Assembly: GCA_913055765.1 (NCBI GenBank)
Contig: CAJXKI010000005.1
Location: 1-36,849 of the forward strand
DNA: 36,849 bases
Direction: 5' to 3'
Origin: an uncultured Ectothiorhodospiraceae bacterium
Lineage (GTDB): Bacteria; Pseudomonadota; Gammaproteobacteria; Nitrococcales; Halorhodospiraceae
Shown here: piece by piece, positions 1,554 through 36,774 of the stretch
Numbering within the stretch: position 1 is the first letter of the stretch
Layout: each line of letters begins with the position of its first letter
Position numbers and translations under genes: made by a program
The notes under the pieces: generated by a model
Database searches by the model: none
Seen by the model: only the letters and a program-made list of their open reading frames with translations
What the model was told of the DNA's origin: nothing

Positions 1554-2039
1554 ATGAGCAGAAGACGCTGGAAGCCGCGGCAGCCGAATAGCCTCCAGGA
1601 GGCGATCCGGCTGTGCACCGACTACGCGCTGCACCGGTACAACCGCTCGATCGCGCAGATCGCGGACCTGATCGGGGTCTCCGAGTGGACAATCTACAAG
1701 TGGATCGCCGACGGCTCGATCCCGAGCCGACGCATCCGCCCGCTCGAGTTCGCCACTGGTGCTACCTACATCACCGGCTATCTCGCAGCTAGTGCCGGCA
1801 AGTTAACCGTAGACATCCCGTCGGGCGGGCGCGTCGGCCAGGAGGACCTGCTGGATCTGCAGTCGCGCTGCAACGACGCGGTGAATCTGCTCACGCAGTT
1901 CTACACCGGCTCCGCCAACGAGGAGGACGTCCTCGAGGGCGTCACCCAGGCAATGCGTGCGCTCGCCGGCCATCGCGAGAACGTACGCAAGTCGGACGCC
2001 CCCGGGCTCGGCCTGTTCGAGGGAAGCGGCGATGAGTGA
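1554..2039 (+). CDS. HTH-containing early phage protein
   Basis: SIAQIADLIGVSEWTIYKWIADGSIPSRRI HTH-like segment; lies between ner and the transposase gene; ATG 1554. Confidence 0.6.
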   Translation: MSRRRWKPRQPNSLQEAIRLCTDYALHRYNRSIAQIADLIGVSEWTIYKWIADGSIPSRRIRPLEFATGATYITGYLAASAGKLTVDIPSGGRVGQEDLLDLQSRCNDAVNLLTQFYTGSANEEDVLEGVTQAMRALAGHRENVRKSDAPGLGLFEGSGDE

Positions 2040-4230
2040 AGAGCGCTGGTATACCGCCTCGGAGTTGGCCGGATTGCCCGGCATGCCGGGAACCGTGCAG
2101 GGCGTGCGGCTTCGCGCCAAACAAGAGAAGTGGGTTTCTCGGAAGCGCGGAGGGCGTGGTGGCGGGTATGAGCATGCCGTAAGCAATCTCCCGGAGGAGA
2201 CCCGCTCCCACCTCGCCGCCCAGCACCTGCGCGAGGAGGCCTCCTCCGGCGACGAGGCCGCCCAGGCCGGCGCCGCGGCGGGGCGGCGACTGCAGATCCA
2301 GCGCGTCGTTGCGCAGACCGCTCGGCAGCACGCGCTCGAGAGCGGCGCCGCCCGCCTGGCCTCGCTGCAGGGGCGCGACCGGCGCCGCGCCGAGGCGCGG
2401 CTGGCGCTGCTCAGCCAGCTCGACCGCTACATCGCAAACGCCCGGCTCTCGACGAGCAAGGGCATCCAGGCCTTTGTCACCCGCTACAACGCCGGCGAGA
2501 TCGAGGCCCCGGGGTGGGTGCGCGACGAGATCCCCGACGTCTCGACCGCCTCGATCTACCGCTGGCGCCGGCGGCTCAACGAGCACGGTGCCGCCGAGCT
2601 CGCGGGGCGCTACGGCAACCGCCGCGGCTCCGGCGCCATCGACCGCCAAGACGAGCTGCGCCGCTTCGTCGAGTCGATGATCACGGAGCACGACGCTAGC
2701 CCGAAGCAGATCTGGCAAGCGATGCGCGCCCGCTACGCCGAGCGCAACGACATCCGGCTGCCGAGCCAGCGCTCGCTGCAGCGCTGGGTGAACCGGTGGC
2801 GCCGGCAGCACCAGGCGACCTATGAGGCCGCCCGCAACCCGGATGCGTGGAAGAGCCGCTACATGACGGCGTTCGGCTCGTACAGCGCCGGCGTCGAGCG
2901 GCTTAACGCCCTGTGGGAACTCGACTCGACGCCGGCGGACGTGATGCTCACCGACGGCCGCCACCACCTGATCGGCGCCATCGACGTCTACAGCCGCCGC
3001 GCCATGCTGCTGGTCACCCCCGTCTCCAAGGCGGAGGCGATCGGCACCCTGACCCGCCGGGCGATCATCGAGTGGGGCGTGCCGGAGACGGTCAAGACCG
3101 ACGAGGGCGCGGACTACACGAGCTACCAGTACGCCAGCGTCCTGCAAGCCCTCGGCGTCGAGCAGCGCACCTGCACGCCCTTCGCGCCCTGGGAGAAGCC
3201 GCACGTCGAGCGCTTCTTCCGGACCTTCCAGCACGATCTCGTCGAGCTGCTGCCCGGCTACGTCGGCCACGACGTCGCCGAGCGCCAGGCGCTCGAGGCG
3301 CGCTCGGCGTTCTCGGAGCGGCTGTTCAAGAAGGACGAGGCGGTCGAGGTGCGGATGAGCGCCGCCGAGCTCCAGGAGTTCTGCGACCGCTGGGTGCGCG
3401 ACGTCTACGAGCACAACCCCCACGAGGGGCTCGGCGGCCAGACGCCGTTCCAGGTCGCCGCCGCCAGCCGCGACACGGTGCGCACGATCAGCGACGAGCG
3501 CGCCCTCGACGTGCTGCTCGCCGAGGTCGGCGAGCGGACGGTGACGAAGAAAGGGGTCCGCATCGATCGCGGCCTCTACGTCCACCCGGATCTCGCCCTG
3601 CACGTCGGCGAGCGCGTCACTGTCCGGCGCGATCCGACCGACCTCGGGCGCATCTGGGTCTTCGGCGGCGCCGATAACGACTTCATCTGTGAGGCGGTGG
3701 ACCCGGAGGTCGTCGGCGTCGACCGCCAGGAGATCGCCGCCGAGGCCCGCCAGCGCCAGAAGGCGCGCACCCAGGAGGCCCGCCGGGAGCTGCGCCGCAG
3801 CGCGCGGCAGCAGAGCACCCGCGAGATCGCCCACGAGATCCTCGACAGCCGCGCCCGCGAGGCGGGCCGGGTGAGCGCCTTCCCGACGCCGAGCGAGACG
3901 CACACTACGCCGGAGATCGAGGCTGCCGGCCGCGCCGCCCGCACCGACGAGCCGCCGCAGCCGGAGGAGACCGAGCGCACCGCGGCGGCCGCGCGGCACG
4001 CCGCGGAGGTGGTCTCGCTCGATGCCCAGCGCACCGCCGAGCCGGACCCGGCGGAGATGAATAACGCGGAGCGCTACCGCTACTGGTGCGAGCTCGACCG
4101 GCGCCTGTCCGCCGGCGAGCCGATCTCGAGCGACGCCCGCGCGTTCTACGAGAGCTTCCGGAACTCGCCGACCTGGCGGGCGTTTCGGGAAATGGAGCAA
4201 GACCTGGCCATCGGCAGTGGCCAGGAGTAG
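2032..4230 (+). CDS. MuA-like DDE transposase
   Basis: N-terminal WYTASELAGLPGMPGT; catalytic core LWELDSTPAD...KTDEGADYTS...KPHVERFFRT (D,D,E); followed by a MuB homologue. Confidence 0.95.
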   Translation: MSEERWYTASELAGLPGMPGTVQGVRLRAKQEKWVSRKRGGRGGGYEHAVSNLPEETRSHLAAQHLREEASSGDEAAQAGAAAGRRLQIQRVVAQTARQHALESGAARLASLQGRDRRRAEARLALLSQLDRYIANARLSTSKGIQAFVTRYNAGEIEAPGWVRDEIPDVSTASIYRWRRRLNEHGAAELAGRYGNRRGSGAIDRQDELRRFVESMITEHDASPKQIWQAMRARYAERNDIRLPSQRSLQRWVNRWRRQHQATYEAARNPDAWKSRYMTAFGSYSAGVERLNALWELDSTPADVMLTDGRHHLIGAIDVYSRRAMLLVTPVSKAEAIGTLTRRAIIEWGVPETVKTDEGADYTSYQYASVLQALGVEQRTCTPFAPWEKPHVERFFRTFQHDLVELLPGYVGHDVAERQALEARSAFSERLFKKDEAVEVRMSAAELQEFCDRWVRDVYEHNPHEGLGGQTPFQVAAASRDTVRTISDERALDVLLAEVGERTVTKKGVRIDRGLYVHPDLALHVGERVTVRRDPTDLGRIWVFGGADNDFICEAVDPEVVGVDRQEIAAEARQRQKARTQEARRELRRSARQQSTREIAHEILDSRAREAGRVSAFPTPSETHTTPEIEAAGRAARTDEPPQPEETERTAAAARHAAEVVSLDAQRTAEPDPAEMNNAERYRYWCELDRRLSAGEPISSDARAFYESFRNSPTWRAFREMEQDLAIGSGQE

Positions 4231-4308
4231 GTGGCCCGCCGTTACCGCGGCGGGCCGGGTGGGCCGAAGGGCCCAGTTGAGGAAAAGCAACCACAACGAG
4301 GTGACAGT

Positions 4309-5049
4309 ATGACGCAAGCACCCTTTGAAGGCCAGTCCGGCACGGTCGCCCCGCTGGCGAACGTGGGCCTGTGCCACCAGGCGGTCCAGCAGGTGATGGA
4401 CCGCCCGGGCCACCTGCCCGGGATGATCACCTTCTACGGCCCCTCGGGCTACGGGAAGAGCACGGCGGCCGCCTACACCGCCAACAAGACCCGGGCCTAC
4501 TACATCCAGTGCATGAGCTCCTGGACCCGCAAGGCGCTGCTCCAGGCGGTGCTCCGCGAGATGGGGCTGACCCCGCACAAGACGCTCTACGAGATGACCG
4601 AGCAGATCGCCGAGCAGCTGGTGGTGACCGGCCGGCCGCTGATCATCGACGAGGTCGACCACATCGTCAGCAAGTCCGCGGTCGAGATCATCCGGGACCT
4701 CTACGAGGGCTCCAATGCCCCGATCCTGCTCATCGGCGAGGAGCGCCTGCCCCACCGTCTGCAGCAGTGGGAGCGCTTCCACAACCGCATGCTCGACTGG
4801 GTCGCCGCGCAGCCGGCCTCGATCGAGGATACCCGGCACCTGGCGCGGCTCTACGCCCCCGGGGTGACCATCGCCGAGGACCTGCTCGGCCGCATCCAGG
4901 AGGTCTCGCGGGGCTCGGTCCGCCGCGTCTGCGTGAACATCGAGCAGGTGCGCGCCGAGGCGCAGCAGCTCGGGCGCACCGAGATGGACCTGCAGGCCTG
5001 GGGCCGGCGGGAGCTGTTCTCCGGTGAGCCGCCGAAGCGGAGGGTCTGA
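4309..5049 (+). CDS. MuB-like AAA+ ATP-binding transposition protein
   Basis: Walker A GPSGYGKST, Walker B PLIIDEVDHI; directly downstream of the transposase. Confidence 0.93.
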   Translation: MTQAPFEGQSGTVAPLANVGLCHQAVQQVMDRPGHLPGMITFYGPSGYGKSTAAAYTANKTRAYYIQCMSSWTRKALLQAVLREMGLTPHKTLYEMTEQIAEQLVVTGRPLIIDEVDHIVSKSAVEIIRDLYEGSNAPILLIGEERLPHRLQQWERFHNRMLDWVAAQPASIEDTRHLARLYAPGVTIAEDLLGRIQEVSRGSVRRVCVNIEQVRAEAQQLGRTEMDLQAWGRRELFSGEPPKRRV

Positions 5050-5050
5050 G

Positions 5051-5653
5051 ATGGCGCGCAAGCCCGTCGATCAGCAAGGCAAGCACGACACCCGCGAGGC
5101 CGCCTGGGCGGCGATGCGCCGGCTCGGCGAGTTCACGCCGCCGCAGATCCGGCGCGAGACGCTGCTCGGCCGGGACACCGTGCGCGACTACATCGATGGC
5201 CTGGCCGCGGCCGGCTACATCGAGGAGACCGGCGAGACGGTCCACCAGCGCGGCGCTGCCTACTCGCGCGTCTACCGCGTGGTCCGCGACGCCGCCGAGG
5301 CGCCGCGGGTCCGCCGGGACGGCACGGCTGTCACCCAGGGGCTCGGGCGCGAGCAGATGTGGCGGACCATGCGCATCCTCGGCGAGTTCAGCGCCCGCGA
5401 CCTGGCGGTGACCGCCTCCACCGAGGAGGTGCTCATCGCCTACGCCGAGGCGCAGACCTACTGCCACTACCTGCACCGGGCCGGCTACCTGGCCGCCACC
5501 GACCCCGGCGGCCCGGGGCGCCCGGCGCGCTACCGCTTCCTGCGCACCCGCTACACGGGGCCGCAGCCGCCCCAGGTCCAGCGTGTGCGCCAGGTCTACG
5601 ACGCCAACCTGCGCGAGGTCGTCTGGCGCCAAGGAGGAGATAGCGATGAGTGA
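5051..5653 (+). CDS. Winged-helix-like early phage protein
   Basis: Two wHTH-like segments (AWAAMRRLGEFTPPQIRRETLLGRDTVRDYIDGLAAAGYIEE; MWRTMRILGEFSARDLAVTASTEEVLIAYAEAQTYCHYLHRAGYL). Confidence 0.55.
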   Translation: MARKPVDQQGKHDTREAAWAAMRRLGEFTPPQIRRETLLGRDTVRDYIDGLAAAGYIEETGETVHQRGAAYSRVYRVVRDAAEAPRVRRDGTAVTQGLGREQMWRTMRILGEFSARDLAVTASTEEVLIAYAEAQTYCHYLHRAGYLAATDPGGPGRPARYRFLRTRYTGPQPPQVQRVRQVYDANLREVVWRQGGDSDE

Positions 5654-5981
5654 CGCCGCCACCGAGCAGCCGGCCTGGCTGCGCGCGCTCGCCGAGCGCT
5701 GCCACGCCACCTCCCAGGCCCGGGCGGCCCGGGAGGTGGGCCTGAGCCCGAGCACGATCAACCAGGTGCTCAAGGGCACCTACCGGGGCAACTGGGAGCG
5801 CGTGCGCACGCGCATCGAGGGGGCGCTGCTGCACGTCGCCGTGCACTGCCCCGTACTCGGCGAGATCTCCTCGGCCGACTGCCTGGACTACCAGCGCCGC
5901 CCGTTCGTGGCGACCAACCCCCAGCGCGTGCGGCTCTACAAGGCCTGCCGCACCTGCCCGCACAACATCTCGGAGGGCTGA
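5646..5981 (+). CDS. HTH and Cys-motif early regulator, as seen in Mu-like phages
   Basis: QARAAREVGLSPSTINQVLKGTYRGNWERV plus HCPVLG...ACRTCPHN cysteines. Confidence 0.6.
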   Translation: MSDAATEQPAWLRALAERCHATSQARAAREVGLSPSTINQVLKGTYRGNWERVRTRIEGALLHVAVHCPVLGEISSADCLDYQRRPFVATNPQRVRLYKACRTCPHNISEG

Positions 5982-5984
5982 GCG

Positions 5985-6302
5985 ATGTGCACGACCTACA
6001 CCGATGAGTACCTCAACTACTACGCCGACCGCTACCTGGACCTCGGCCTGCGCTACTGCGGCATCAGCCTCGAGACGTACCTGCGCCAGCCCGAGGAGTG
6101 CGAGCGGCTGGTGCGCGAGGGGTGCGACCCGCTGATCATCAACCAGGCCTTGCGCCTGTCGCGCGACGTGGCGGCGGCCCGGCACATCGCGCCCGTCGAG
6201 AGCCTGCCCCGGCGCGGCGGCGTGCCGGTCGAGAAGCTGCGCCACCGCCGTCACCCCCGGCGCCACACCGCGGCGGCGAGCTTCAAGGGGGCCAAGGCAT
6301 GA
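5985..6302 (+). CDS. Hypothetical early protein
   Basis: Tightly packed ORF in the early operon. Confidence 0.5.
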   Translation: MCTTYTDEYLNYYADRYLDLGLRYCGISLETYLRQPEECERLVREGCDPLIINQALRLSRDVAAARHIAPVESLPRRGGVPVEKLRHRRHPRRHTAAASFKGAKA

Positions 6303-6574
6303 GCCGGCTGGTGACTCGCCGGTTCTTCCGGGCCTTCGACAGCGATCGCTACGGCCAGATCCTCGCCCTGCGCAAGCAGGGCGAGGACGGCCCGGAGCTG
6401 CAGGTGCTCTTTCGCCCGCCTGGCCTCGACGTCTGCACGGTCGGCTTTCAGTTCACCGATGACGCCGCCGGCGCCGAGAAGGCGGACCAGGCGCTGGGGT
6501 CGCTCACCCACGAGCAGGTCGAGGCCCTGCTCGCCGACGTCACCCAGGACGAGCTCTTTCAGGAGGACCGATGA
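6299..6574 (+). CDS. Hypothetical early protein
   Basis: ATG overlaps the upstream stop; packed in the operon. Confidence 0.5.
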   Translation: MSRLVTRRFFRAFDSDRYGQILALRKQGEDGPELQVLFRPPGLDVCTVGFQFTDDAAGAEKADQALGSLTHEQVEALLADVTQDELFQEDR

Positions 6575-7173
6575 TACCCGAAGGCTACATGGAGAACAGC
6601 GCCGGGCACCTGGTGCCGATCGACCAGGTGCGCGAGCAGGACATGATGCGCGACCAGCTCGCCCGCGACCTCGCCGAGCGCGCCGAGGCGCTCTCGGCGG
6701 AGCTGCAGGCGTTCAAGGAGCAGGCCCTGCACGACATCCAGGACCTGGTGCGCATCACCGCCGAGCGCTACGGCGTAACGATCGGCGGCGAGAAGGGCAA
6801 CGTGAGCGTGACGAGCTATGACGGCCGCTACAAGATCGAGCGGGCGACCGCCGAGCGGCTGGCATTCACGGAGGAGCTCCACGCCGCGAAGGACCTCATC
6901 GACCAGTGCATCGAGAAGTGGAGCGAGGGCGCTAACCCGCACCTGCGCTCGCTGGTGGATCGGGCCTTCAGGACCGACCGCCAGGGCAACCTGAAGACGC
7001 ACGCGGTCCTCGAGCTGCTGCGCCTCGAGATCGACGACGAGGACTGGAAGCAGGCGATGGCCGCGCTGCGTGACTCCATCCAGACCACGGGCACGGCCGT
7101 CTACGTCCGGGCCTACCGGCGCGACGAGAGCGGCCGCTACCAGGCGATCCCGCTCGACCTCGCGGCCGTGTGA
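6571..7173 (+). CDS. DUF3164-like early phage protein
   Basis: MIPEGYMENSAGHLVPIDQVREQDMMRDQLARDLAERAEAL resembles DUF3164 proteins common in Mu-like phages. Confidence 0.75.
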   Translation: MIPEGYMENSAGHLVPIDQVREQDMMRDQLARDLAERAEALSAELQAFKEQALHDIQDLVRITAERYGVTIGGEKGNVSVTSYDGRYKIERATAERLAFTEELHAAKDLIDQCIEKWSEGANPHLRSLVDRAFRTDRQGNLKTHAVLELLRLEIDDEDWKQAMAALRDSIQTTGTAVYVRAYRRDESGRYQAIPLDLAAV

Positions 7174-7256
7174 AGGCGAAACGCCCGGGGCGTCCCGGGC
7201 GTCGCCGGCGGTGGCGCCGCCGGCCTGATGAGCCAGCCACAAGGGAGGCCCTCGCC

Positions 7257-7661
7257 ATGAGCAAGGACCGGCGCGAGCGCGAGCTCGCCCAGATCCACAT
7301 CGCCGCCAAGGAGCTTTGCCTCGATCGTGACACCTACGAGGCCATGCTCGAGGCGCTGGCGGGGGTGCGCTCCGCCTCGGCACTGGACGCTGCGCAGCGC
7401 CGCCAGGTGCTCGAGCACCTGCGCTCGCGCGGCTGGCAGCCCCGGCGGCGCGGTCGCAGCCGAGCGGCCCCGGATCGCCGCGAGCTGGTCGCCAAGGTGC
7501 GCGCTCAGCTCGCCGCCGCCGGCCGGCCCGATGCCTATGCCGACGCCCTGGCGCGGCGGATGTTCGGCGTCGAGCGCTTCGAGTGGTGCCGCTCGCACCA
7601 GCTCCGCCGGCTGGTTGCCGCCCTGACCTACGACGCCCGCCGCCAGGGGCGGGAGCAGTGA
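7257..7661 (+). CDS. GemA-like regulatory protein (Mu gp16 / DUF1018)
   Basis: LAQIHIAAKELCLDRDTYEAMLEALAGVRSASALDAAQRRQVLEHLRSRGW. Confidence 0.85.
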   Translation: MSKDRRERELAQIHIAAKELCLDRDTYEAMLEALAGVRSASALDAAQRRQVLEHLRSRGWQPRRRGRSRAAPDRRELVAKVRAQLAAAGRPDAYADALARRMFGVERFEWCRSHQLRRLVAALTYDARRQGREQ

Positions 7662-7672
7662 AGGAGGTGCCT

Positions 7673-7930
7673 ATGCTGCCCGGCTACGCTGACGAGCTCT
7701 ACGGCAGCCGGGACGCTGCCGTGATGGCCATGGTCGAGGCGGCCGTGCTCGGCGATGGCCTGCACAGTGCCGCGGCGGTGGCGCAGATGCTCTACGAGCT
7801 GGACGACACCGTCGACTGGCTCCTGGGGCTCGCCGCGCTCCACGGTGATCGGTTCCAGCGCACGGCCCGCCGCCAGCACTGGCAGCAGGCGATCATCGAG
7901 ATGGCGTACCGCAAAGGGGTGTGGCCATGA
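7673..7930 (+). CDS. Hypothetical early protein
   Basis: Strong SD (aaggaggtg) before ATG 7673. Confidence 0.55.
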   Translation: MLPGYADELYGSRDAAVMAMVEAAVLGDGLHSAAAVAQMLYELDDTVDWLLGLAALHGDRFQRTARRQHWQQAIIEMAYRKGVWP

Positions 7931-8412
7931 AGTTCCGCTGCCCGGTCTGCCACGCAGAGGCCTCGCTCGAGGCGGTCTTCGAGGACGAGTCCGCCCGGGA
8001 GCTCATGGCGCTGCTCGGCGGGCTATCGCGTGACGTCTCGGCGCCGCTGGTCGCGTACCTCGGCCTGTGGCGCAGCCGCACCCGGGCACTGTCCTGGGAG
8101 CGGGCGCTGCGCATCGCTCGGGAGGCGCTCGCTGAGCACACGGACACGGCGCTGCTCGGCGCCGCGCTCTCCGAGACGGTCGAGGCGATCCGGCGCAAGC
8201 GCGAGGAGGGTGAGGACACCCGCCCGCTGCGCTCGCACCACTACCTGCGCCGTGTGCTCGAGAGCCTGGCGAGCCGCGGCACCGAGGCCGCGGCGCTGCC
8301 GGCGCAGCGCCCGGCGCCGGCGCCCGGCTCGCAGCCGAGGGGCTCGCAGGCCGGGGGCAGCCGCACTGCGCAGGCCTTGCAAGATCTGGAGGAGTGGCGC
8401 CATGGCGAGTGA
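7927..8412 (+). CDS. Zinc-ribbon-like early protein
   Basis: Starts MKFRCPVCHAEASLE; ATG 7927 overlaps the upstream stop. Confidence 0.5.
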   Translation: MKFRCPVCHAEASLEAVFEDESARELMALLGGLSRDVSAPLVAYLGLWRSRTRALSWERALRIAREALAEHTDTALLGAALSETVEAIRRKREEGEDTRPLRSHHYLRRVLESLASRGTEAAALPAQRPAPAPGSQPRGSQAGGSRTAQALQDLEEWRHGE

Positions 8413-8791
8413 GATCCCGAGCTGGTTCCGCTCGGTCGTCGGCGAGCAGATCCAGCGCCTGGTGGCGCTGGGGCTGGCAGGCGGCCCGGGATACGATACG
8501 ATAAAGCTCACGGCCCAGGCGTGGGCCGAGTCGCTCTGGAGCGCGCCGGTGCAGTGGGACGAGTCGCTCGACACGCCCCGGCTGCGCACCGCGTTCCAGG
8601 CGGTGGCGCGCAACGCCGAGCGCTGGCCGGCGCCGCGCCACGTGCTCGACGCGCTGCCGAGCCGGCCGCAGCCGCGCAAGCTGCCGCTGCCGGAGCCGAC
8701 GCCGGAGCAGATCGAGCGTAACCGCCGCTGGCTACAGGAGGAGCTCGAGCGTGCAGGATTGCGGTCGCCGCGGCGACGGGATCGTCAGTAG
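8402..8791 (+). CDS. Hypothetical early protein
   Basis: Overlaps upstream and downstream genes; ATG 8402. Confidence 0.5.
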   Translation: MASEIPSWFRSVVGEQIQRLVALGLAGGPGYDTIKLTAQAWAESLWSAPVQWDESLDTPRLRTAFQAVARNAERWPAPRHVLDALPSRPQPRKLPLPEPTPEQIERNRRWLQEELERAGLRSPRRRDRQ

Positions 8792-9149
8792 TCAGCTGCG
8801 AGGGATCGCCGAGGTCGTGGGGGCGCGCTCGGCGCTTCGGCTCGCCGAGCACTACGGCGGCCTGGAGGGCTGCTACGTCCCGCGCACGCCGCGGGCCGAG
8901 CACCCCTGGGCCAGGCTTATCGGCCTCGAGGCGTTCCGCCGGCTGTGCTGGCACTACGGCGGCGAGCGCATCGACATCCCGCGCAATGCCGCGGCGCGCT
9001 CAGTGAAGTCGCGCATCCTGCGGCTCAAGGGCGATGGCCTTTCGCATCGGCGCATCGCCGCGGACCTGGGCTGCACCGAGCGCTACGTCCGCATGATCGT
9101 CAACGCCGGCGCCGGCGTTGACGAGCGCCAGGGCGATCTCTTCGCCTGA
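8751..9149 (+). CDS. Mor/C-family transcription activator (late gene activator)
   Basis: LRLAEHYGGLEGCYVPR...GLEAFRRLCWHYGGERIDIPRN...LKGDGLSHRRIAADLGCTERYVRMIVN; last gene before the lysis/late block. Confidence 0.9.
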   Translation: MQDCGRRGDGIVSSQLRGIAEVVGARSALRLAEHYGGLEGCYVPRTPRAEHPWARLIGLEAFRRLCWHYGGERIDIPRNAAARSVKSRILRLKGDGLSHRRIAADLGCTERYVRMIVNAGAGVDERQGDLFA

Positions 9150-9170
9150 GTCTCTTCCCCTTTTTAGACA

Positions 9171-9217
9171 CCGGAATCCCTTCCGGGCGCCCTCGCGCCC
9201 GCCGCCGGCTGCACCAT
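9171..9217 (+). promoter_or_regulatory. Putative Mor/C-dependent late promoter (Plys-like)
   Basis: CCGGAATCCCTTCCGG palindrome 9171-9186 and GCACCAT 9211-9217; same layout as 15875 and 28344. Confidence 0.65.
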
Positions 9218-9245
9218 CGCTCCTAGAGCGAGCGAGGAGTGCAGC

Positions 9246-9692
9246 ATGCCCGACGAGCACCGTCCCCAGGACATCGACACCCTAGCGCGCACCGTCTACG
9301 GCGAGGCCCGCAGCGAGCCGCTGCAGGGCCAGATCGCCGTGGCGCATGTGGTGCTCAACCGCTATGCGCAGCCCGGCTGGTGGACCCGGCAACAGGGCGA
9401 CGGTGTGCCGGACGACACGATCGAGGCGGCGTGCCTCGACCCCTGGCAGTTCAGCTGCTGGAACGACGGGGATCCGAACCGCGCCAAGCTCGAGGCGGCC
9501 ACCTTGGCCGATCCGGCGTTGCGCCGCGCCATGGCTGTGGCGTGTGCGGCTGTCGAGGGTCTCGAGGGATTCGGTGATCCGACGGGCGGGGCCACGCACT
9601 ACCACGCCCGCTCGATCCGCCCCGATTGGGACTACGAGGCGCTGAGCGAGCCTGTAGCGATCGGGGCGCACCACTTCTACCGCAGACGCTAG
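9246..9692 (+). CDS. Cell-wall hydrolase, SleB/CwlJ type (endolysin)
   Basis: LARTVYGEARSEPLQGQIAVAHVVLNRY...GGATHYHARSIRPDW. Confidence 0.85.
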   Translation: MPDEHRPQDIDTLARTVYGEARSEPLQGQIAVAHVVLNRYAQPGWWTRQQGDGVPDDTIEAACLDPWQFSCWNDGDPNRAKLEAATLADPALRRAMAVACAAVEGLEGFGDPTGGATHYHARSIRPDWDYEALSEPVAIGAHHFYRRR

Positions 9693-9700
9693 GAGGGCCC

Positions 9701-9913
9701 ATGAAAGGGCAGAAGGCCTGGTATCGGAGCAAGACGGTCTGGGGCGGCATCATCGCGGTCGCCGCCGCCGTGGCAGGCGCTTTCGGCGTGGATATCGGCG
9801 CTGACGCGCAGACGCAGCTCGCCGAGTACGCCACTGCCATCGCCGGCGCCGTCGGCGGCGTCGTGGCCGTTATCGGTCGCGTGGTCGCCCAGGACGAGAT
9901 TTCCAAGGGCTAA
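9701..9913 (+). CDS. Holin-like membrane protein
   Basis: WYRSKTVWGGIIAVAAAVAGAFGVDI...AIAGAVGGVVAVIGRVVA; two hydrophobic segments in the lysis cassette. Confidence 0.65.
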   Translation: MKGQKAWYRSKTVWGGIIAVAAAVAGAFGVDIGADAQTQLAEYATAIAGAVGGVVAVIGRVVAQDEISKG

Positions 9914-10131
9914 TGACTACGGCGCTGATCACCGGGGCGGTCACGCTGGGTGCGGTCGGGGCGCTGGGGCTGGTGCTCTGGCTCTACGGCCGCGCCCAGC
10001 GGCGCCTCGGCGCCCAAGCGCGGCGCCGGGATCAGGCGCAGGAGGCGGCGGATGCGAAACGGCGGATGGAGCAGGTACGCCCCGGCAGCGAGCGCGGTAC
10101 TGCTGAGCGGCTGCGCGATGGGGACTACTAG
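9913..10131 (+). CDS. Possible inner-membrane spanin (Rz-like)
   Basis: N-terminal hydrophobic segment then a charged helix; contains the out-of-frame start of a lipoprotein ORF. Confidence 0.45.
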   Translation: MTTALITGAVTLGAVGALGLVLWLYGRAQRRLGAQARRRDQAQEAADAKRRMEQVRPGSERGTAERLRDGDY

Positions 10132-10342
10132 CGTGGTCACGCCAGAGCTCGAGGCGTACTCGGACTCGTTCCAGGCCAAGGCCGCGCAGGAGATGGCCGA
10201 GGACGGCCGCCGCCCCTGCGACCGCCAGCAGCCGCGCCCGCCCTGCTCGGCGCTCAAGCGCCTGGCTGTCGATTACGGCGTGATGCGCGAGCGCGTCCGC
10301 GCCGCCGGCAGCGAGGAGACCCTGAGCAGCCAGGAGGAGTGA
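10052..10342 (+). CDS. Possible outer-membrane spanin lipoprotein (Rz1-like)
   Basis: Signal and lipobox SAVLLSGC; overlaps 9913-10131 in another frame. Confidence 0.5.
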   Translation: MRNGGWSRYAPAASAVLLSGCAMGTTSVVTPELEAYSDSFQAKAAQEMAEDGRRPCDRQQPRPPCSALKRLAVDYGVMRERVRAAGSEETLSSQEE

Positions 10343-10345
10343 GCT

Positions 10346-10750
10346 GTGGGGCTCGGCACTGAAGAGTGGAAGGTCGTTATCGCCGGGCTGGCGCTGCTGT
10401 CGAACATCATCGCCATGACCGCTGGCGGCTACGCCTGGGCGGTGGCGCGGCGCCAGGCGCGCAAGAGCGAGGTCGATCAGGGCTTCGAGAAGGTGCACGG
10501 CCGTATCGACGAGGCGGGCCAGGCCCACGCGAACCTGCGCGAGCGCGTCTCGAGCATCGAGACGCACATCCGCCAGCTGCCGGATAACTCGACCGTCTCC
10601 GATCTGCACATCCTGGTCGAGCGCCTGCGCGGCGACGTGACCGGACTGAACAAGGAGCTCGAGGGCTTCAAGGAGCTCTCGAACGTCATGAACCGCCAGG
10701 TAGAGATGATGGACACCTACCTGCGCGAGGGCAGCCGCCACGGCGGCTAG
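10346..10750 (+). CDS. DUF2730-like phage protein
   Basis: N-terminal TM, coiled coil, GTG start; conserved place before the gp26/gp27 equivalents. Confidence 0.6.
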   Translation: MGLGTEEWKVVIAGLALLSNIIAMTAGGYAWAVARRQARKSEVDQGFEKVHGRIDEAGQAHANLRERVSSIETHIRQLPDNSTVSDLHILVERLRGDVTGLNKELEGFKELSNVMNRQVEMMDTYLREGSRHGG

Positions 10751-10763
10751 CCGAGGGGAGGGG

Positions 10764-11069
10764 TTGAGCGTGTCGGACTATCTGCAGCACATCGCCGAGC
10801 ACCGCCGGCTGGCCATCCTGCAGACGCTCTCCGGGGCGCCGGGGTACTCGGCCAACGAGCAGCTGCTCCGGGAGCTCGTGGACAGCTACGGGCTGCGCGC
10901 GACCCTCGACCAGGTGCGCGGCGACCTGACGTGGCTGAGCGAGCAGGGGGCGGTGAAGCTCACGGAGCTCGGCGGGCTGATGATCGCCGAGCTCACCGAA
11001 CGCGGCGCCGATCTGGCGGCCGGCCGCGCTAGCCAGCCCGGCGTGCGCCGCCCTGGGCCGGGCGCGTGA
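10764..11069 (+). CDS. Mu gp26-like wHTH protein
   Basis: EHRRLAILQTLSGAPGYSANEQLLRELVDSYGL...DLTWLSEQGAVKL. Confidence 0.7.
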   Translation: MSVSDYLQHIAEHRRLAILQTLSGAPGYSANEQLLRELVDSYGLRATLDQVRGDLTWLSEQGAVKLTELGGLMIAELTERGADLAAGRASQPGVRRPGPGA

Positions 11070-13138: not shown

Positions 13139-14595
13139 GCACCAAGCCGGTCTACGAGGAGATCGCCGCCGCCGGAGACGGCGAGGACGTGCTGGCGCCG
13201 CTGATCGGTGAGCTGCGCCAGCCGCGCGACGAGATCCTGCGCACCCGCGGCCGCGGGGATCTGGAGATCTACGAGCGGGTCAAGCGCGATGACCAGGTGC
13301 AGAGCTGCCTGCAGCAGCGCTTCAACGCCACCATCGCTTGCGAATGGGGGGTCGAGCCGGGCGGCCGCAAACAGCGCGATCGCAAGGCCGCGGACTTCCT
13401 GCGCGAGCAGCTGGCGCACATCCGCTTCGACAACGCCACGCGCAAGATGCTCAACGGCATCTGGTACGGCTACGGCGTCGCCGAGTGCCTCTGGGCGCCG
13501 GACGGCGGCAACGTGGTGCTCGACCAGCTGAAGGTGCGCCGTCCGGCGCGCTTCGGCTTTGATGTCGACGGGCGGCTGCGGCTGATCACCTACCGCGCCC
13601 CGCAGGGCGAGGTGATGCCCGAGCGCAAGTTCTGGACGTTCAGCTCGGGGGGCGACGACGATGACGACCTGTACGGCCGCGGGCTGGCCTACTGGTGCTA
13701 CTGGCCGGTCTGGCTCAAGCGCAACGGGCTGAAGTTCTGGTCGGTCTACATGGAGAAGTTCGCCGCGCCGACCGCCAAGGGCACAGTGCCGCGCGGGGCG
13801 AGCGACGAGGAGAAGCAGAAGCTGATGCAGGCCCTCAGGGCCATGACCTTCGACAGCGCCCTGGTGGTGCCGGACGGCACCCAGGCGGAGCTGCTGGGCG
13901 CGGCCCAGCGCTCGGGCGGCGACTACCAGCAGTTCTACCGCGAGATGAACGGCGCGATCTCCAAGGTCATCCTCTCGCAGACGATGACCACGGACAGCGG
14001 CTCCAGCCGCGCGCAGGCCGAGGTGCACCAGGATGTGAAGCTGGATGTCGTCCGCGCCGACGCGGACCTCGTCTGCGAGTCGTTCTCAGACCAGGTGGCG
14101 CGCTGGCTGATCGATTGGAACTACCCGGGGGCCGCCTACCCGCGGGTGTGGCGCGAGGTTAGCGAGCCCGAGGACCTCAAGGCCCGGGCCGACCGCGACA
14201 AGGTCATCTACGACATGGGCTACCGGCCCACTCAGGCGTACGTCGACGAGGTCTACGGGCAGGGCTTCGAGCCGCGCCAGGGGGCTGCCCGCGGCGGCGC
14301 TCAGCAGGCGGCCGGCGGCGCCGGGTTCGCCGAGCCGGAGCGCGCCGCCGAGCAGGAGCGCGACGAGCTCGCCGGGCAGCTCGAGGAGCTGACGCGCCCT
14401 TACACGGATGCTTGGCTGGAGGAGGTGCGCCAGGCGCTCGAGGCGAGCACCGATTTCAGCGAGGCCGTCCGGCGCCTCGAGGCCCTGCATCCGGGGCTCG
14501 ACGTCGCGGAGCTGGCGCGCACCATCGGCGACGGCCTGGCGGTGGCGAACCTGAGCGGGCGCAGCGACAGCGCGGACGATGCCGATGGCGCATGA
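13135..14595 (+). CDS. DUF935 portal protein (Mu gp29-like)
   Basis: YERVKRDDQVQSCLQQRFNATIACEWGVEPG...YGYGVAECLW. Confidence 0.9.
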   Translation: MSTKPVYEEIAAAGDGEDVLAPLIGELRQPRDEILRTRGRGDLEIYERVKRDDQVQSCLQQRFNATIACEWGVEPGGRKQRDRKAADFLREQLAHIRFDNATRKMLNGIWYGYGVAECLWAPDGGNVVLDQLKVRRPARFGFDVDGRLRLITYRAPQGEVMPERKFWTFSSGGDDDDDLYGRGLAYWCYWPVWLKRNGLKFWSVYMEKFAAPTAKGTVPRGASDEEKQKLMQALRAMTFDSALVVPDGTQAELLGAAQRSGGDYQQFYREMNGAISKVILSQTMTTDSGSSRAQAEVHQDVKLDVVRADADLVCESFSDQVARWLIDWNYPGAAYPRVWREVSEPEDLKARADRDKVIYDMGYRPTQAYVDEVYGQGFEPRQGAARGGAQQAAGGAGFAEPERAAEQERDELAGQLEELTRPYTDAWLEEVRQALEASTDFSEAVRRLEALHPGLDVAELARTIGDGLAVANLSGRSDSADDADGA

Positions 14596-15769
14596 GACCT
14601 TGGCCGAGGGGCAGCCCTTCCAGGAGGCTGTCGACTACTTCGCCGGCAAGCTGAACCTGCCCACCGAGCGCTGGACGGATATCCGCGAGGGCGAGCACGC
14701 CAAGGCGTTCGTCGTCGCCGGGGCGCAGAAGGCGGCGCTGCTCGCCGACTTCCGCAAGGCCGTCGACCGGGCGGTGCGCGACGGGGAGACCCTGGACAGC
14801 TTCCGGAAGCGCTTCGACGAGATCGTCGCCCGGCACGGCTGGAGCTACAAAGGCTCGCGCGGCTGGCGCTCGCGCACGATCTACCAGACCAACATCCGCC
14901 AGGCCTACAACGCCGGGCGCTGGCAGCAGGCCCAGCAGCTGCGCCAGAGCCACCCCTATCTGCGCTACGAGGCCATTGACGACGGGCGCACCCGCCCGGA
15001 GCACGAGGCCTGGGACGGGACCATCCTGCCGGCCGACGATCCGTGGTGGGACACCCACATGCCCATGAACGGCTGGGGGTGCCGGTGCTCGGCGCTGCCG
15101 ACCTCTGAGCGCGAGCTCGAGCGCCAGGGGCTGTCGGTCTCCGAGCGCCCGCCGGTGACGATGGAGAGCCGGCCGGTGAATACCGCCGCGGGCCCGGTCG
15201 ACTGGCCTACACCCCAGGGCATCGACGCCGGGTTCGGCTACAACGCGGGCCGCGCGGCCTACGGCTCGATCGACCAGCAGCAGGCGATGGCGGCCTGGGG
15301 CGAGAACGCGGAGCGCTGGGAGCGGCTGACCGGCGGCGACTGGCAGAGCGCGCAGCAGCCGCAGGCCCTGGCGGTCGATGATCCGCCTGCCCCGGCGCGC
15401 GCCGAGCTGCCGGCGGACCGGGCGGCCTACGCCCGCGAGATCCTCGGCGGCGAGGCGGCGCACGTCACCCTGCCCGACGGCAGCCAGGCGGTGCTGTCGG
15501 CCGACGCGCTGGCGAAGAACCTGGACGACGCCGCGCTGCGCCAGCTGCCCAGGCTCCAGGCGACGCTGGAAGACCCGCGGGAGGCCTGGCTCGCCTTCGA
15601 GAGGCACGCCGACACCGGCCAGGTCGAGCTGCGCCGCCGCCTGCTGCGCCACCACGGCGATACGGTGTTGACGGTGCAGCTTGGGCGCAACACCGTGGAG
15701 GCGGTGCACGCGGACTCGCCCGAGCAGGCCAACCGCCACCGCGTGGGCCATCTCACCCGCTCCCGCTGA
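14579..15769 (+). CDS. Mu gpF (gp30)-like head morphogenesis protein
   Basis: YQTNIRQAYNAGRWQQAQQLRQSHPYLRYEAIDDGRTRPEHEAWDG...HMPMNGWGCRCSA. Confidence 0.9.
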   Translation: MPMAHETLAEGQPFQEAVDYFAGKLNLPTERWTDIREGEHAKAFVVAGAQKAALLADFRKAVDRAVRDGETLDSFRKRFDEIVARHGWSYKGSRGWRSRTIYQTNIRQAYNAGRWQQAQQLRQSHPYLRYEAIDDGRTRPEHEAWDGTILPADDPWWDTHMPMNGWGCRCSALPTSERELERQGLSVSERPPVTMESRPVNTAAGPVDWPTPQGIDAGFGYNAGRAAYGSIDQQQAMAAWGENAERWERLTGGDWQSAQQPQALAVDDPPAPARAELPADRAAYAREILGGEAAHVTLPDGSQAVLSADALAKNLDDAALRQLPRLQATLEDPREAWLAFERHADTGQVELRRRLLRHHGDTVLTVQLGRNTVEAVHADSPEQANRHRVGHLTRSR

Positions 15770-30900: not shown

Positions 30901-31303
30901 CACCTGGAAACAGGCCCGCGTGCTCGGGGCCTTTTACGACCGCTTGGCCGAGGGGGTCGCGGGCCAGACCGCTTGCCCGCAGATCGCGTCCTTCGGCGTC
31001 TGCTACGGCTGGATCGACACCAGCGGGGATATGCCGCAACCCGAGGAGCCGCCGTTCGATGCCGAGTCCCTGCCGGGGTCGCTCGTGCATACGGGGCTGG
31101 TGACGGCGGAGCCGTCGGGCAAGTCGGTGCTGGCGACGGCCGTGATCCCCGAGGGGGCGGTGGCGGAGCCGACGCAGGTGACCGCCATCGGGCTGTTCGA
31201 CCAGACCGACACGCTCGTGGCCGCGGTGAGCTTTCTTCCGGAGTGGATCACCCCGGACAAGCGCTACGAGCACCTGGTCCACATGACGTTCCCGGAGGAG
31301 TGA
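30893..31303 (+). CDS. Tail fibre/collar-associated protein
   Basis: Position after gpI; TAIGLFDQTDTLVAAVSFLPEWITPDKRYEHLVHMTF. Confidence 0.55.
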   Translation: MPDTWKQARVLGAFYDRLAEGVAGQTACPQIASFGVCYGWIDTSGDMPQPEEPPFDAESLPGSLVHTGLVTAEPSGKSVLATAVIPEGAVAEPTQVTAIGLFDQTDTLVAAVSFLPEWITPDKRYEHLVHMTFPEE

Positions 31304-31873: not shown

Positions 31874-34711
31874 ATGGGCAAGATTTTGACTGAGGTCGCG
31901 GCCGCGCAGCAGGCCGTGGAGGAGCTTCGCCAGCGGGTGGATCTGCTGCTGACCGCCTATGGCGAGGACGCGATCGACGCCGACAAGATCCAGCAGGACA
32001 TCGAGCAGGCGACGCAAGACGCCATCGATTCGGTGCTCAGCGAGCTGAGCGGCCTGGATGTTTCCGATCTCAAGCTGCGCAGCGAGCTACAGCGCCAGCT
32101 CCTGGGGCTCCAGAACGCCTACGGCGAGCAGAAGTTCTTCTTCGAGTTCTTCGACCCGCTCTACGCCGCATCGGACCAGGTGAGCGTGAGCGGTGTGGAG
32201 ACGGTCGCCGGCGATAACAGCGTAGATATCAGCTCCACAGCGGACCTGGTGGTGGGCCGTGAGTACGTCATCGAGACGGACCAGGCGCAGGAGGTTGTCG
32301 AGGTGGCGGAGGTCCTCTCGGACACTCGCTTCACGACCACGACGGACCTGATGGCCACCCTGAGCGGCGCCACCCTGCGCCGGACCAACTGGTCCATCGG
32401 CGACGGCAAGGCCACGGCGGAGCCCGGCCAGGTCTACTACAGCCTGCCCTTGTCGCTGGGGCCGGGCGACACCGACAAGGCGGTGGTGGTGCGCCGGGGT
32501 AGCGCCGGGTCGGTGCGGCTGTACTACACCGATGCCCAGACCTCCGGCTGGGTCGAGGTGCCGTGGGAGTGGCGCCGCGACAGCGACACCGCCATGACGG
32601 ACCTGGGCCTGGTGGACGATAGCCAGGACACCGGGCGCGTGGATGTGGAGTTCCGTCTGCCCGCGCGCGGGACGTTCGAGCTGAAGCTGGTGGCCGAGGG
32701 CGACACGGTGACGGTGCAGCATATCGTGGGCATCGATCAGCCGACCCTCCTGGGCGGCGATCACCACCCGCCGGAGCAGCCCACCAACGATAACCCGGCC
32801 GACGGCGCCACGCAGATCGCGGAGACGCCCACCCTGGCGCTGGCGGACTACACCTCGCCCACGGATACCCCGCAGGCGGCATTGCAGGTGCAGGTGACCG
32901 ATACGCCGGGCGATTACAGCGCCCCCTTGCACGATAGCGGCACGGTCGCCGGCGGGCTCTCCTATCCGCTGCCGGAAGGGGTGCTCACCGAGGGCACGCA
33001 GTACGGCTGGCGGGCCCGGGTCCAGGACGATCAGGGTGCCTGGTCGGAGTGGTCGGCCGAGACCACCTTCGAGACGGATAGCGTGTGGGAGTTCGTGGAA
33101 GCGCCCACGAACCAGACCCCGGCCGCTGGCGCCACCGATATCCCCAGCCAGCCGACGCTGGCCGTCAGTGACTTTGCGGTGCAGGGCTTTGATCCGATCG
33201 ATCTGAACGATGGCAGCTCGGATCTATGGACGGAGAGCAGCGCCGTCGCCGGCGAGTATTACTACACCGGCACCGCGCTCGCGGCGGAGCCGAACCGCCT
33301 GTTGGCCAATGGCAGCGAGCTGACCCAAGGCACGCTGGGCAGCTTGAACGCCGGCGAGTGGGCCTGGGGCGACAACGACAGCATCGGGTCCGATACGGTC
33401 TACGTGAAGTTGTCGGCCGGTGATCCGGACACCCAGACCGCTGGCTACGTCCAGGCGGGGGAAAGCCACGTGGCGACGCAGTGGCAGCTGCGCGCCGCCA
33501 GCGGCAGCTACGATTCCCCGCTATGGGACAGCGGCGAGACCAGCACCGACCTGACGACCATCGTGGTGCCCGACGGCATCCTCTCCGACGGCCAGACCAC
33601 CTACTATTGGCGCGCCCGGTTCGAGGGGCAGCACATCGGTTGGTCGGAGTGGTCGGCGGAGACGAGCTTCACTACCAAGGAGCTGTTCGCTCAGATCATC
33701 GGCCTGGCGCTGGTCAGCAGCGGCGGCGGCGCCGGCAGCTGGCAGCGTGTGGACGCCGACGGCAACAACATCACCCCGGATACGAGCTACTTCGATAACC
33801 ATCCGGTGTTCGGCGCCATCAAGGATGTGGTGATCGACGGCCAGGATATGGTCGAGATCCCCAAGTTCTATTACCAGGTGGGCCAGGCCCCGGCGGGCTC
33901 GGATCAGGACGGCAACAAGGTGTTCTGGATATCCGACGTGGCCGCCACGGGCTACCAGCTGCACCCCGCGTTCATGGACGGCGGCTCCGAGGTGGCGCAG
34001 TTCTACGTCGGCAAGTACCAGGCGGTGGACGATCCCAATGCCTCGGGCAGCAAGGCAGCGTCGCTGCCGGGCTATAACCCGCTGGTCTCGATCGACTTCA
34101 CCACCTTCCAGAGCCGGTGCTCCGAGCGCAACACGGCCAGCGGCGTGGACGGGTTCATGCTGTGGTCCATGTACCAGCGCTCCGCGATCCTCATGCTCAT
34201 GATGATCGAGATCGGCGGCGCCGACGGGCAGAGCCTGATCGGGCAGGGCCGTGTGAATCAGGGCAGCGCGGCCAATGTGGACGCCACCGACGTGGCCGAG
34301 GCCACCTACCGCGGCATCGTTGGCCTGTGGGGCAACGTTCGGCAATGGTTGGACGGCATGGAGCTGGATGGCAGCCATGTGGTGAGCGTCTGGGACCAGC
34401 AGGGCAACCAGACCTGGGTGGCCACCGGTGTCACCACCGCCAGCACCGACGGCTGGCCCACGGCCATGCACGAGGAGTCCGGCACGGACTACGATCTGGC
34501 GCCGCTGATGCTCCCCAGCGCCACCGACGGGACCGAGTCCAACGGGACCTACGGCGACTATCTGTGGGCCAGCGACAGCAGCGAGATCAACATCCCCAAC
34601 CACGGCGGCAACTGGCGCAACGGCTCCCCGGCGGGGCCCTTCTGTCTGGGCTGCCACTACGTGGCCTCGTACTCCAACAGTTACGTCGGCGGCCGCCTCG
34701 CAAAGGTGTGA
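31874..34711 (+). CDS. Tail fibre with C-type-lectin-like C-terminus; DGR target protein
   Basis: Two Ig/FN3-like repeats (WSEWSAET); C-terminal GLWGNVRQWLDGMEL...GGNWRNGSPAGPFCLGCHYVASYSNSYVGGRLAKV matches the TR translation. Confidence 0.92.
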   Translation: MGKILTEVAAAQQAVEELRQRVDLLLTAYGEDAIDADKIQQDIEQATQDAIDSVLSELSGLDVSDLKLRSELQRQLLGLQNAYGEQKFFFEFFDPLYAASDQVSVSGVETVAGDNSVDISSTADLVVGREYVIETDQAQEVVEVAEVLSDTRFTTTTDLMATLSGATLRRTNWSIGDGKATAEPGQVYYSLPLSLGPGDTDKAVVVRRGSAGSVRLYYTDAQTSGWVEVPWEWRRDSDTAMTDLGLVDDSQDTGRVDVEFRLPARGTFELKLVAEGDTVTVQHIVGIDQPTLLGGDHHPPEQPTNDNPADGATQIAETPTLALADYTSPTDTPQAALQVQVTDTPGDYSAPLHDSGTVAGGLSYPLPEGVLTEGTQYGWRARVQDDQGAWSEWSAETTFETDSVWEFVEAPTNQTPAAGATDIPSQPTLAVSDFAVQGFDPIDLNDGSSDLWTESSAVAGEYYYTGTALAAEPNRLLANGSELTQGTLGSLNAGEWAWGDNDSIGSDTVYVKLSAGDPDTQTAGYVQAGESHVATQWQLRAASGSYDSPLWDSGETSTDLTTIVVPDGILSDGQTTYYWRARFEGQHIGWSEWSAETSFTTKELFAQIIGLALVSSGGGAGSWQRVDADGNNITPDTSYFDNHPVFGAIKDVVIDGQDMVEIPKFYYQVGQAPAGSDQDGNKVFWISDVAATGYQLHPAFMDGGSEVAQFYVGKYQAVDDPNASGSKAASLPGYNPLVSIDFTTFQSRCSERNTASGVDGFMLWSMYQRSAILMLMMIEIGGADGQSLIGQGRVNQGSAANVDATDVAEATYRGIVGLWGNVRQWLDGMELDGSHVVSVWDQQGNQTWVATGVTTASTDGWPTAMHEESGTDYDLAPLMLPSATDGTESNGTYGDYLWASDSSEINIPNHGGNWRNGSPAGPFCLGCHYVASYSNSYVGGRLAKV
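34602..34703 (+). repeat. DGR variable repeat (VR)
   Basis: 92/102 identical to the TR at 35431-35532; 9 of 10 differences at TR adenines. Confidence 0.96.
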
Positions 34712-34738
34712 CGGCAACCTGAAACCTGGCGTTCTGGT

Positions 34739-34760
34739 GGGCCGCGCGATAGCGCGGCCC
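34739..34760 (+). other. DGR target hairpin/cruciform downstream of the VR
   Basis: GGGCCGCGC-GATA-GCGCGGCCC, perfect 9-bp stem with GATA tetraloop, 35 nt after the VR. Confidence 0.75.
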
Positions 34761-34780
34761 CCTAATCAGGAGCAAAAGCG

Positions 34781-35065
34781 ATGAAGATCGGCAATCAGAT
34801 TCAGTGGGGCAAGATCAAGAGCCTGGGGCTTCCGGCCATGGACCGGAGCGTTCCCGCCTCCGAGTATCGGCAGGACGTGAAGGTCTACAAGGTTCCCAAG
34901 GATGTGGACGCGGGGCGCTACTACGTGGGCGCCACGCCGGCTAACGCGGTGGAGCAGCGGCCGCCCAGCCGGGTGCGGGAGACGGACCTGCTGTGCCATT
35001 ACGTGCTACAGCCGGACGGCGAGGCGCGGCTGGTGTACGCCCGCGACGAGGTGCGGGCAGCGTAG
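34781..35065 (+). CDS. Small unknown DGR-cassette protein
   Basis: 94 aa between fibre and avd; SD-like caggagc; no family recognised. Confidence 0.65.
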   Translation: MKIGNQIQWGKIKSLGLPAMDRSVPASEYRQDVKVYKVPKDVDAGRYYVGATPANAVEQRPPSRVRETDLLCHYVLQPDGEARLVYARDEVRAA

Positions 35066-35067
35066 CC

Positions 35068-35421
35068 GTGGCCAGCACGCTCGACGGCCTGAAGATCCTG
35101 GCCAAGCTGGAGGAGCTGCACGCATACAGCCACCAGGCGGCCATGCACTTTCCGAAGTATGAGCGGCACGTGCTGTGCGCGGATATCCGCCACCGCTGCC
35201 AGACCATGCTCCACCTGGCCGTCCGGGCGGCGAAGAAGTACCACAAGAAGACCACCTTGCAGGACCTCGATATCGAGGTGGAGATGCTGCGCTCCCTGGT
35301 GCGCCAGGCGCACCGGCTGCGCTACATCAACGACCACCGCTATGAGGTCTGGTCCCGCCACATCGACGAGGTGGGGCGGATGGTGGGTGGCTGGATTCAG
35401 TCCAGCAAGAGCACAGGGTGA
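35068..35421 (+). CDS. avd: DGR accessory variability determinant (Avd-like, four-helix bundle)
   Basis: 117 aa from GTG; FPKYERHVLCADIRHRCQTMLHLAVRAAKKYHKKTTLQDLDIEVEMLRSLVRQAHRLRYINDHRYEVWSRHIDEVGRMVGGWI; adjacent to TR and RT. Confidence 0.9.
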   Translation: MASTLDGLKILAKLEELHAYSHQAAMHFPKYERHVLCADIRHRCQTMLHLAVRAAKKYHKKTTLQDLDIEVEMLRSLVRQAHRLRYINDHRYEVWSRHIDEVGRMVGGWIQSSKSTG

Positions 35422-35430
35422 TGGCCTGTT

Positions 35431-35532
35431 ACGGCGGCAACTGGAGCAACGGCTCCCAGGCGGGGCCCTTCTGTCTGAACTGCAACAACGTGGCCTCGAA
35501 CTCCAACAGCAACATCGGCGGCCGCCTCGCAA
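35431..35532 (+). repeat. DGR template repeat (TR)
   Basis: Homologous to the VR, with AAC codons where the VR has GGC, CAC or TAC; between avd and RT. Confidence 0.96.
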
Positions 35533-35687
35533 GAGGGATTGGCCAGAAGGCGCTTGCCCACGGGCGGCGTCCAGCGCCCTCATCTTGGGGCCGTCATCCT
35601 CGCCTCCATGAGGCGAAAGATAGACCCGGGGCCGCGGCGAGTAGCACGCGCGAAAGTGGCGGCCTCCCATATTCCGAAGGGGGAACG

Positions 35688-36722
35688 GTGCCGAAGACGG
35701 TGAAGAATCTGTGGTCGCATGTGGCCACCTTCCAGAATTTGCACGCGGCCTGGCTGGAGGCGCGTAAGGGCAAGCGCTACACCGGCCCTTGCATGCAGTT
35801 CGGCTGGGGGCTGGAGGGCCGGTTGCTTGAGCTGGAGAGTCGGCTCAATGCGGGCACGTGGCGGCCGTCGCCGCCCTACGAGTTCGGCATCGTTGACCCC
35901 AAGCCTCGGCGTATCCAGGCGCCGCCCTTTGCGGACCGGGTGGTGCACCACGCCTTGGTGCGGCAGATCGAACCCTGCTTCGAGCGCCGGTTCATCGCGG
36001 ACAGCTACGCTTGCCGGGCCGGCAAAGGCAGCCACGCCGCGGTGGAGCGACTCCAGGGGTTCCTCCGGCACGGGCAGGGGCGCTGGGGCGACCCCTGGGT
36101 GCTGAAGGCGGATGTGCGCCGGTACTTCCCGTCTATTCAGCACGCCCGTTTGATGCGCGCAATCGGGCGGGAGATCGGCGACCGGCGGGTGGTAGCGCTG
36201 GCGGAGCGGATCATCCGCGGCTACGGCCATGAGGACGGCGTCGGCTTGCCCATCGGCGCTCTCACTAGCCAGCTGTTCGCCAACGTGTACCTCGACCAGC
36301 TCGACCACTACGTGAAGGACCAGCTTGGGGTGAAGCTCTACGTCCGCTACATGGACGACTTCGTGATCGTCGGCCCCAGCAAGGCGGCGCTCTGGGAGGT
36401 CCACGATGCCATTGCGGACTACCTGGAGCAGGATCTGGGCCTTCAGCTCAACCACAAGACCGACGTGTTCCCGGCCCGGCACGGGGTAGACTTCTGCGGC
36501 TACCGTACCTGGACCACCCACCGCCTGCCCCGCAAGCGGACGGTGAAGCGAGCTCGCCGCCGCTTCCGCCGCCTAGCCAGGCTGTACCGAGAAGGGGAGG
36601 TCGACCTTGAGGATATCCGGCCGCAGGTGACCAGCTTCATCGGCTACATGCAGAGGTGCGACGGGAGGCGCACCTTGGAGGGAGTGCTGGGAGATCTCGT
36701 GCTGACGAGATCCTCTTCGTAG
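35688..36722 (+). CDS. DGR reverse transcriptase
   Basis: KADVRRYFPSI, GLPIGALTSQLFANVYLDQLDHYV (DGR-type IGxxxSQ), YVRYMDDFVIVG; GTG 35688 preceded by GGGGGA SD. Confidence 0.93.
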   Translation: MPKTVKNLWSHVATFQNLHAAWLEARKGKRYTGPCMQFGWGLEGRLLELESRLNAGTWRPSPPYEFGIVDPKPRRIQAPPFADRVVHHALVRQIEPCFERRFIADSYACRAGKGSHAAVERLQGFLRHGQGRWGDPWVLKADVRRYFPSIQHARLMRAIGREIGDRRVVALAERIIRGYGHEDGVGLPIGALTSQLFANVYLDQLDHYVKDQLGVKLYVRYMDDFVIVGPSKAALWEVHDAIADYLEQDLGLQLNHKTDVFPARHGVDFCGYRTWTTHRLPRKRTVKRARRRFRRLARLYREGEVDLEDIRPQVTSFIGYMQRCDGRRTLEGVLGDLVLTRSSS

Positions 36723-36742: not shown

Positions 36743-36774
36743 GCTGCGATGCAATCCGTTTGGCGCGTTACAGC

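Follow-up and report, generated by a model that had tools for sequence, protein, structure and literature searches.

The window analysed here is the entire contig CAJXKI010000005.1 (36,849 bp) of an uncultured Ectothiorhodospiraceae bacterium, and it carries, as the last module of a phage, what is almost certainly a diversity-generating retroelement (DGR) of the BPP-1 type. A sequence-only reading had proposed this identity, and the reverse transcriptase (RT), accessory variability determinant (Avd), template repeat (TR), variable repeat (VR) and target gene were all found. The parts placed by that reading at 34602–36722 stood, but the span was too short: the target gene starts outside it, at 31874. 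Positions are those of the window.

1957–4230, + strand: MuA-type transposase (phrog_310, E 1e-122; Mu-transpos_C)
4231–5049, + strand: MuB-type DNA transposition protein (phrog_296, E 6e-66)
31874–34711, + strand: target gene, putative tail receptor (945 aa), a tail-fibre protein ending in the VR
34602–34703, + strand: VR, approximately codons 910–944 of the target gene
34739–34760, + strand: hairpin/cruciform GGGCCGCGC-GATA-GCGCGGCCC, 35 nt past the VR
34781–35065, + strand: 94-aa protein, conserved in the closest DGRs, matching no family
35068–35421, + strand: avd (bAvd PF22296, NF033474, phrog_3206)
35431–35532, + strand: TR, with 23 adenines, the same in sister phage L114
35688–36722, + strand: DGR reverse transcriptase, 344 aa, intact (phrog_1423, RVT_1)
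36771–36772, no strand: approximate right phage end (..GCGTTACA), beyond which L114 diverges

The direct repeats are 102 bp each and 90% identical; their coordinates, lengths and ten differences were reproduced exactly as first read. Nine TR adenines (35445, 35458, 35478, 35479, 35484, 35487, 35499, 35511 and 35514) are replaced in the VR by C, C, G, G, C, T, T, T and G, respectively. The tenth difference, a C-to-T change at TR 35510, is synonymous and, not being at an adenine, is a point counted against the DGR explanation. With 23 adenines among the 102 TR bases, nine of ten differences would fall on adenines by chance with P = 3e-6 (hypergeometric). Identity between the repeats breaks off sharply at both borders, and their GC-rich 3' end is identical. 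A search of the same genome with the TR for a second VR returned only the TR itself and the known VR.

The VR lies at the 3' end of a gene whose product matched a tail protein profile (phrog_5302, E 7e-35) and contains Ig-like domains (match to Ig_Rha78A_N), fitting the phage tail-fibre targets with Ig-like domains beside the VR domain described by Roux et al. (PMC8144416). A profile of its C-terminal 330 aa matched 5vf4, TaqVP (E 1e-55), a DGR variable protein whose structure is solved and shows a C-type lectin fold (PMC6328139). The AF2 model of these residues had a pLDDT of 94, and its top solved matches by Foldseek were the DGR variable proteins TaqVP, TvpA and Mtd; the domain is thus modelled as a C-type-lectin fold homologous to these three. 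Ten codons are altered at TR adenines in the window VR or that of L114, giving rise to zero stop codons.

Profile searches, which the sequence-only reading had suggested as a check, placed both enzyme and accessory protein above curated cut-offs. Avd, lying next to the TR as first read, scored 111 bits against NCBIfam DivGenRetAVD (NF033474, cut-off 80) and 98 bits against Pfam bAvd (PF22296, cut-off 40). The RT scored 66.9 bits against RVT_1 (cut-off 29.6), matched phrog_1423 at E 3.5e-130, and was 38.8% identical to BPP-1 brt over 81%; its frame is open without stops, and the IGALTSQ and YMDD motifs noted earlier are both present. For the RT, GTG 35688 is the probable start codon, because the open frame from 35418 passes through the TR. 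Among solved structures, the nearest relative was the "reverse transcriptase" of the 8ub7 series (E 3e-58), which we take to be that of the BPP-1 DGR. The genome bin contains a second RT (G000:C72:346-912, L001), which was absent among the matches to the DGR RT of the window.

The 94-aa gene between target and avd was also present in relatives L035, L114, L115, L116, L119 and L161. The protein matched nothing in family searches (NCBIfam, Pfam and PHROG profiles) and had no solved relative; its AF2 model was of low confidence (pLDDT 68) and obtained no structural match by Foldseek (best E 0.5). In L119, one TR is accompanied by two VRs (8397–8496 and 15296–15395) that flank the RT and each belong to a separate target gene; the second of these targets is followed by a 93-aa gene, which was considered as a homologue of the 94-aa gene and rejected, as it was not similar.

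Just after the target stop codon stands a perfect 9-bp GC stem with a GATA loop, which fits GRNA. Guo et al. (2011) showed that BPP-1 homing requires such a hairpin, and phage DGR hairpins have GC-rich stems of 7–10 bp, GRNA loops and a distance of 4–34 bp (PMC3240598); the 35 nt in the window is, by our own counting, one base beyond this range. Since stem and GRNA loop match those of Guo et al., the window carries the known DGR target recognition element. When 116 distinct VRs from the window and its relatives were scanned for tetraloop hairpins (stem of at least 6 bp, no more than 100 nt after the repeat), one was found after 56, with a GRNA loop in 47; tetraloop hairpins followed 14 TRs, with GRNA in none. 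The alternative that the window hairpin is a terminator was rejected; no T run lies behind it and it was absent from the terminator scan list.

MuA, MuB, a CI-type repressor encoded on the opposite strand, a Mu portal, MuF, and sheath, tube and tape measure genes together identify the carrier, as judged from gene content, as a Mu-like phage with a contractile tail. The sheath, tube and baseplate families are P2-like, as are the hub and baseplate genes D, V, W, J and I, in accord with the P2-type tail first proposed. The RT stop codon lies about 50 bp before the right phage end at approximately 36772. The earlier description as a Mu-like prophage held for the phage type; as to integration, the phage is a candidate prophage, and the contig ends 77 bp past its right end. 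Beyond the phage, flanks of about 51 and 77 bp remain, which share no 5-bp match; the left end is approximate, and the flanks perhaps derive from different insertions or from packaged host DNA. Because the window is a whole contig with short flanks and no 5-bp duplication, the host is assigned by binning only, supported by a relative in Ectothiorhodospira mobilis. The phage also contains a perfect 28-bp palindrome (TCGTCAACGCCGGCGCCGGCGTTGACGA, 9097–9124), and a MuF-like head protein (14579–15769) with a C-terminal PBECR2 nuclease-like domain.

IMG/VR contig 3300027580_000247 (L114) is a nearly identical sister of the same phage. Across the right-end 11,085 bp the two differed at 20 positions (mismatches at 36773 and 36775, beyond the phage end, being excluded), and 13 of these fell inside the 102-bp VR (binomial P 2e-22), 12 of them on TR adenines (P 1e-8), so that the bias whose absence would have spoken against a DGR was found among relatives. 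The TR was identical. The window and L114 VRs each differ from it at nine adenines, with sites shared only in part and a union of 14 of the 23. Elsewhere, 3,649 bp were without any difference and a further 19,991 bp aligned at 100% (identity as printed). Of the seven differences outside the VR, one is at 33308 and six cluster at 31026–31249 in a 136-aa gene before the fibre genes; this cluster could be a small recombined patch or an assembly variant. Other near-identical pairs of relatives repeated the VR-focused pattern, the best being L036/L118, with 18 differences in 3,859 bp, all in the VR and 17 at TR adenines; in the E. mobilis relative, all 15 differences between TR and VR were on TR adenines. 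The VR of this phage has turned over recently in an otherwise nearly unchanged genome. Because it changed at TR adenines while the TR stayed identical and the rest of the phage nearly so in L114, the comparison indicates recent mutagenic homing in this lineage and bears out the earlier description of the system as active or recently active.

From one genome, recent change is indistinguishable from old, and the element might be an old, now silent DGR with an intact-looking RT and VR differences that are ancient and fixed; otherwise near-identical copies with the same TR, different VRs and nine adenine changes each make this very unlikely. Alternatively, the VR differences between window and L114 could have arisen by recombination with other phages instead of by mutagenic homing, and the six clustered differences at 31026–31249 could be such a recombined patch. 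Recombination would, however, also change other bases and the flanks, whereas the VR differences are on TR adenines except one and end at the repeat boundary, and the same pattern recurs in independent pairs of relatives; we regard this origin as exceedingly improbable. That the RT is part of a group II intron, a retron or a defence system, with the repeat incidental, is scarcely conceivable. The best named NCBIfam model was indeed a group II intron RT, at 137.7 bits (cut-off 300), but the phrog_1423 match, the Avd neighbour and the finding that 124 of 164 sequences scanned around related RTs contain repeat pairs with an adenine bias speak for a DGR enzyme, and neither intron domains around the RT nor relatives without TR/VR pairs were seen.

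The BPP-1 DGR (mtd/avd/TR/brt) has the gene order target-avd-TR-RT. The window element shares this order, the adenine-specific VR change, the GRNA hairpin after the VR and a CLec target, but differs in its Mu-like transposable carrier, in its hairpin 35 nt from the VR (that of BPP-1 being close), in the extra 94-aa gene between target and avd, and in a longer target with Ig-like domains. DGRs on transposable phages are already published, and the window element is a further case; it is not of a new kind, since both the Bacteroides hankyphage and Chromohalobacter phage YPCBV-1 have been described. The latter (PMC9769972, OP380511) is also Mu-like and ends on the right with an FGE/SUMF1-type gene, avd and RT, but its RT is just 34.5% identical to that of the window and no 94-aa gene is annotated. 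The hankyphage (PMC6199706, PMC12135933) is likewise transposable, diversifies a tail fibre through an active DGR and occurs in near-identical copies having the same TR and different VRs; its host belongs to a different phylum, its repeats are 117 bp and its target exceeds 2,200 residues. The Thermus aquaticus DGR, carried by a prophage, provides the nearest solved target protein (TaqVP, PMC6328139, PDB 5VF4), which is single-domain, whereas the window domain ends a 945-aa fibre protein.

Closer relatives were IMG/VR 643348571_000002 (L116) and 3300042281_000566 (L115), which bear MuA, an RT at 61%, the same gene order, the 94-aa gene at 47% and the GRNA hairpin, but match the window at about 70–78% DNA identity in matching stretches. 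The L116 host is presumably Thioalkalivibrio sulfidophilus HL-EbGr7. A phage DGR of that strain is included in Fig. 5 of Guo et al. (PMC3240598). Among 47 virus records encoding a related RT, ten had MuA; in all ten, transposase and RT lie near opposite contig ends, at least 28 kb apart, and in L141 and L165 they are on opposite strands. In the records of BalMu-1 and Vibrio phage ZX4290, too, a related RT is located close to the right end. In L048, L049, L051 and L144, avd occurs twice and a TR/VR pair precedes the RT by about 2 kb; these are possible tandem DGRs.

In E. mobilis (NZ_NRSK01000003.1, L035), a receptor-plus-DGR module at 4372–11020 is 84% identical in DNA to about 6.6 kb of the window, from approximately 30,057 (inside gpI) to 36,677 (RT end). 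It sits between gpI and sheath in the order V-J-I-[fibres-target-94 aa-Avd-TR-RT]-sheath-tube-tape-D, and the 94-aa gene travels within it; V-J-I followed by sheath-tube-tape-D is the P2 gene order. The V, J, sheath, tape measure and D proteins of L035 are about 30–47% identical to those of the window. The same contig also has a MuA-like gene about 11 kb upstream of the module, and the E. mobilis carrier may therefore be a mosaic. Because 84% identical DNA lies inside a P2-order phage, the module appears to move as a unit, and this one pair is most simply read as a joint transfer of receptor and DGR between phage backbones. We tentatively suggest, at somewhat less than an even chance, that receptor gene, 94-aa gene and DGR are a self-contained host-range module swapped whole between gene orders (Mu here, P2 in E. 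mobilis), with edges inside gpI and at the RT stop codon, and that the module includes the 94-aa protein as an undescribed component, e.g., a receptor chaperone or cap.

By homology to known DGRs, RT and Avd would copy TR RNA into cDNA with errors at adenines, and this cDNA would replace the VR at the 3' terminus of the putative tail receptor gene; the GC-rich 3' end in which TR and VR are identical and the hairpin just past the stop codon would direct this step. The C-type-lectin tip of the receptor would thus vary among phages of one lineage, and it is proposed that the phage can therefore bind changed or new host surfaces. The near-identical phages described here, which share an unchanged template and differ chiefly at the diversified tip of the receptor, represent a clean natural experiment. 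The DGR and its target apparently travel together between two phage gene orders, and the gain and loss of DGRs by phages is therefore testable in this group.
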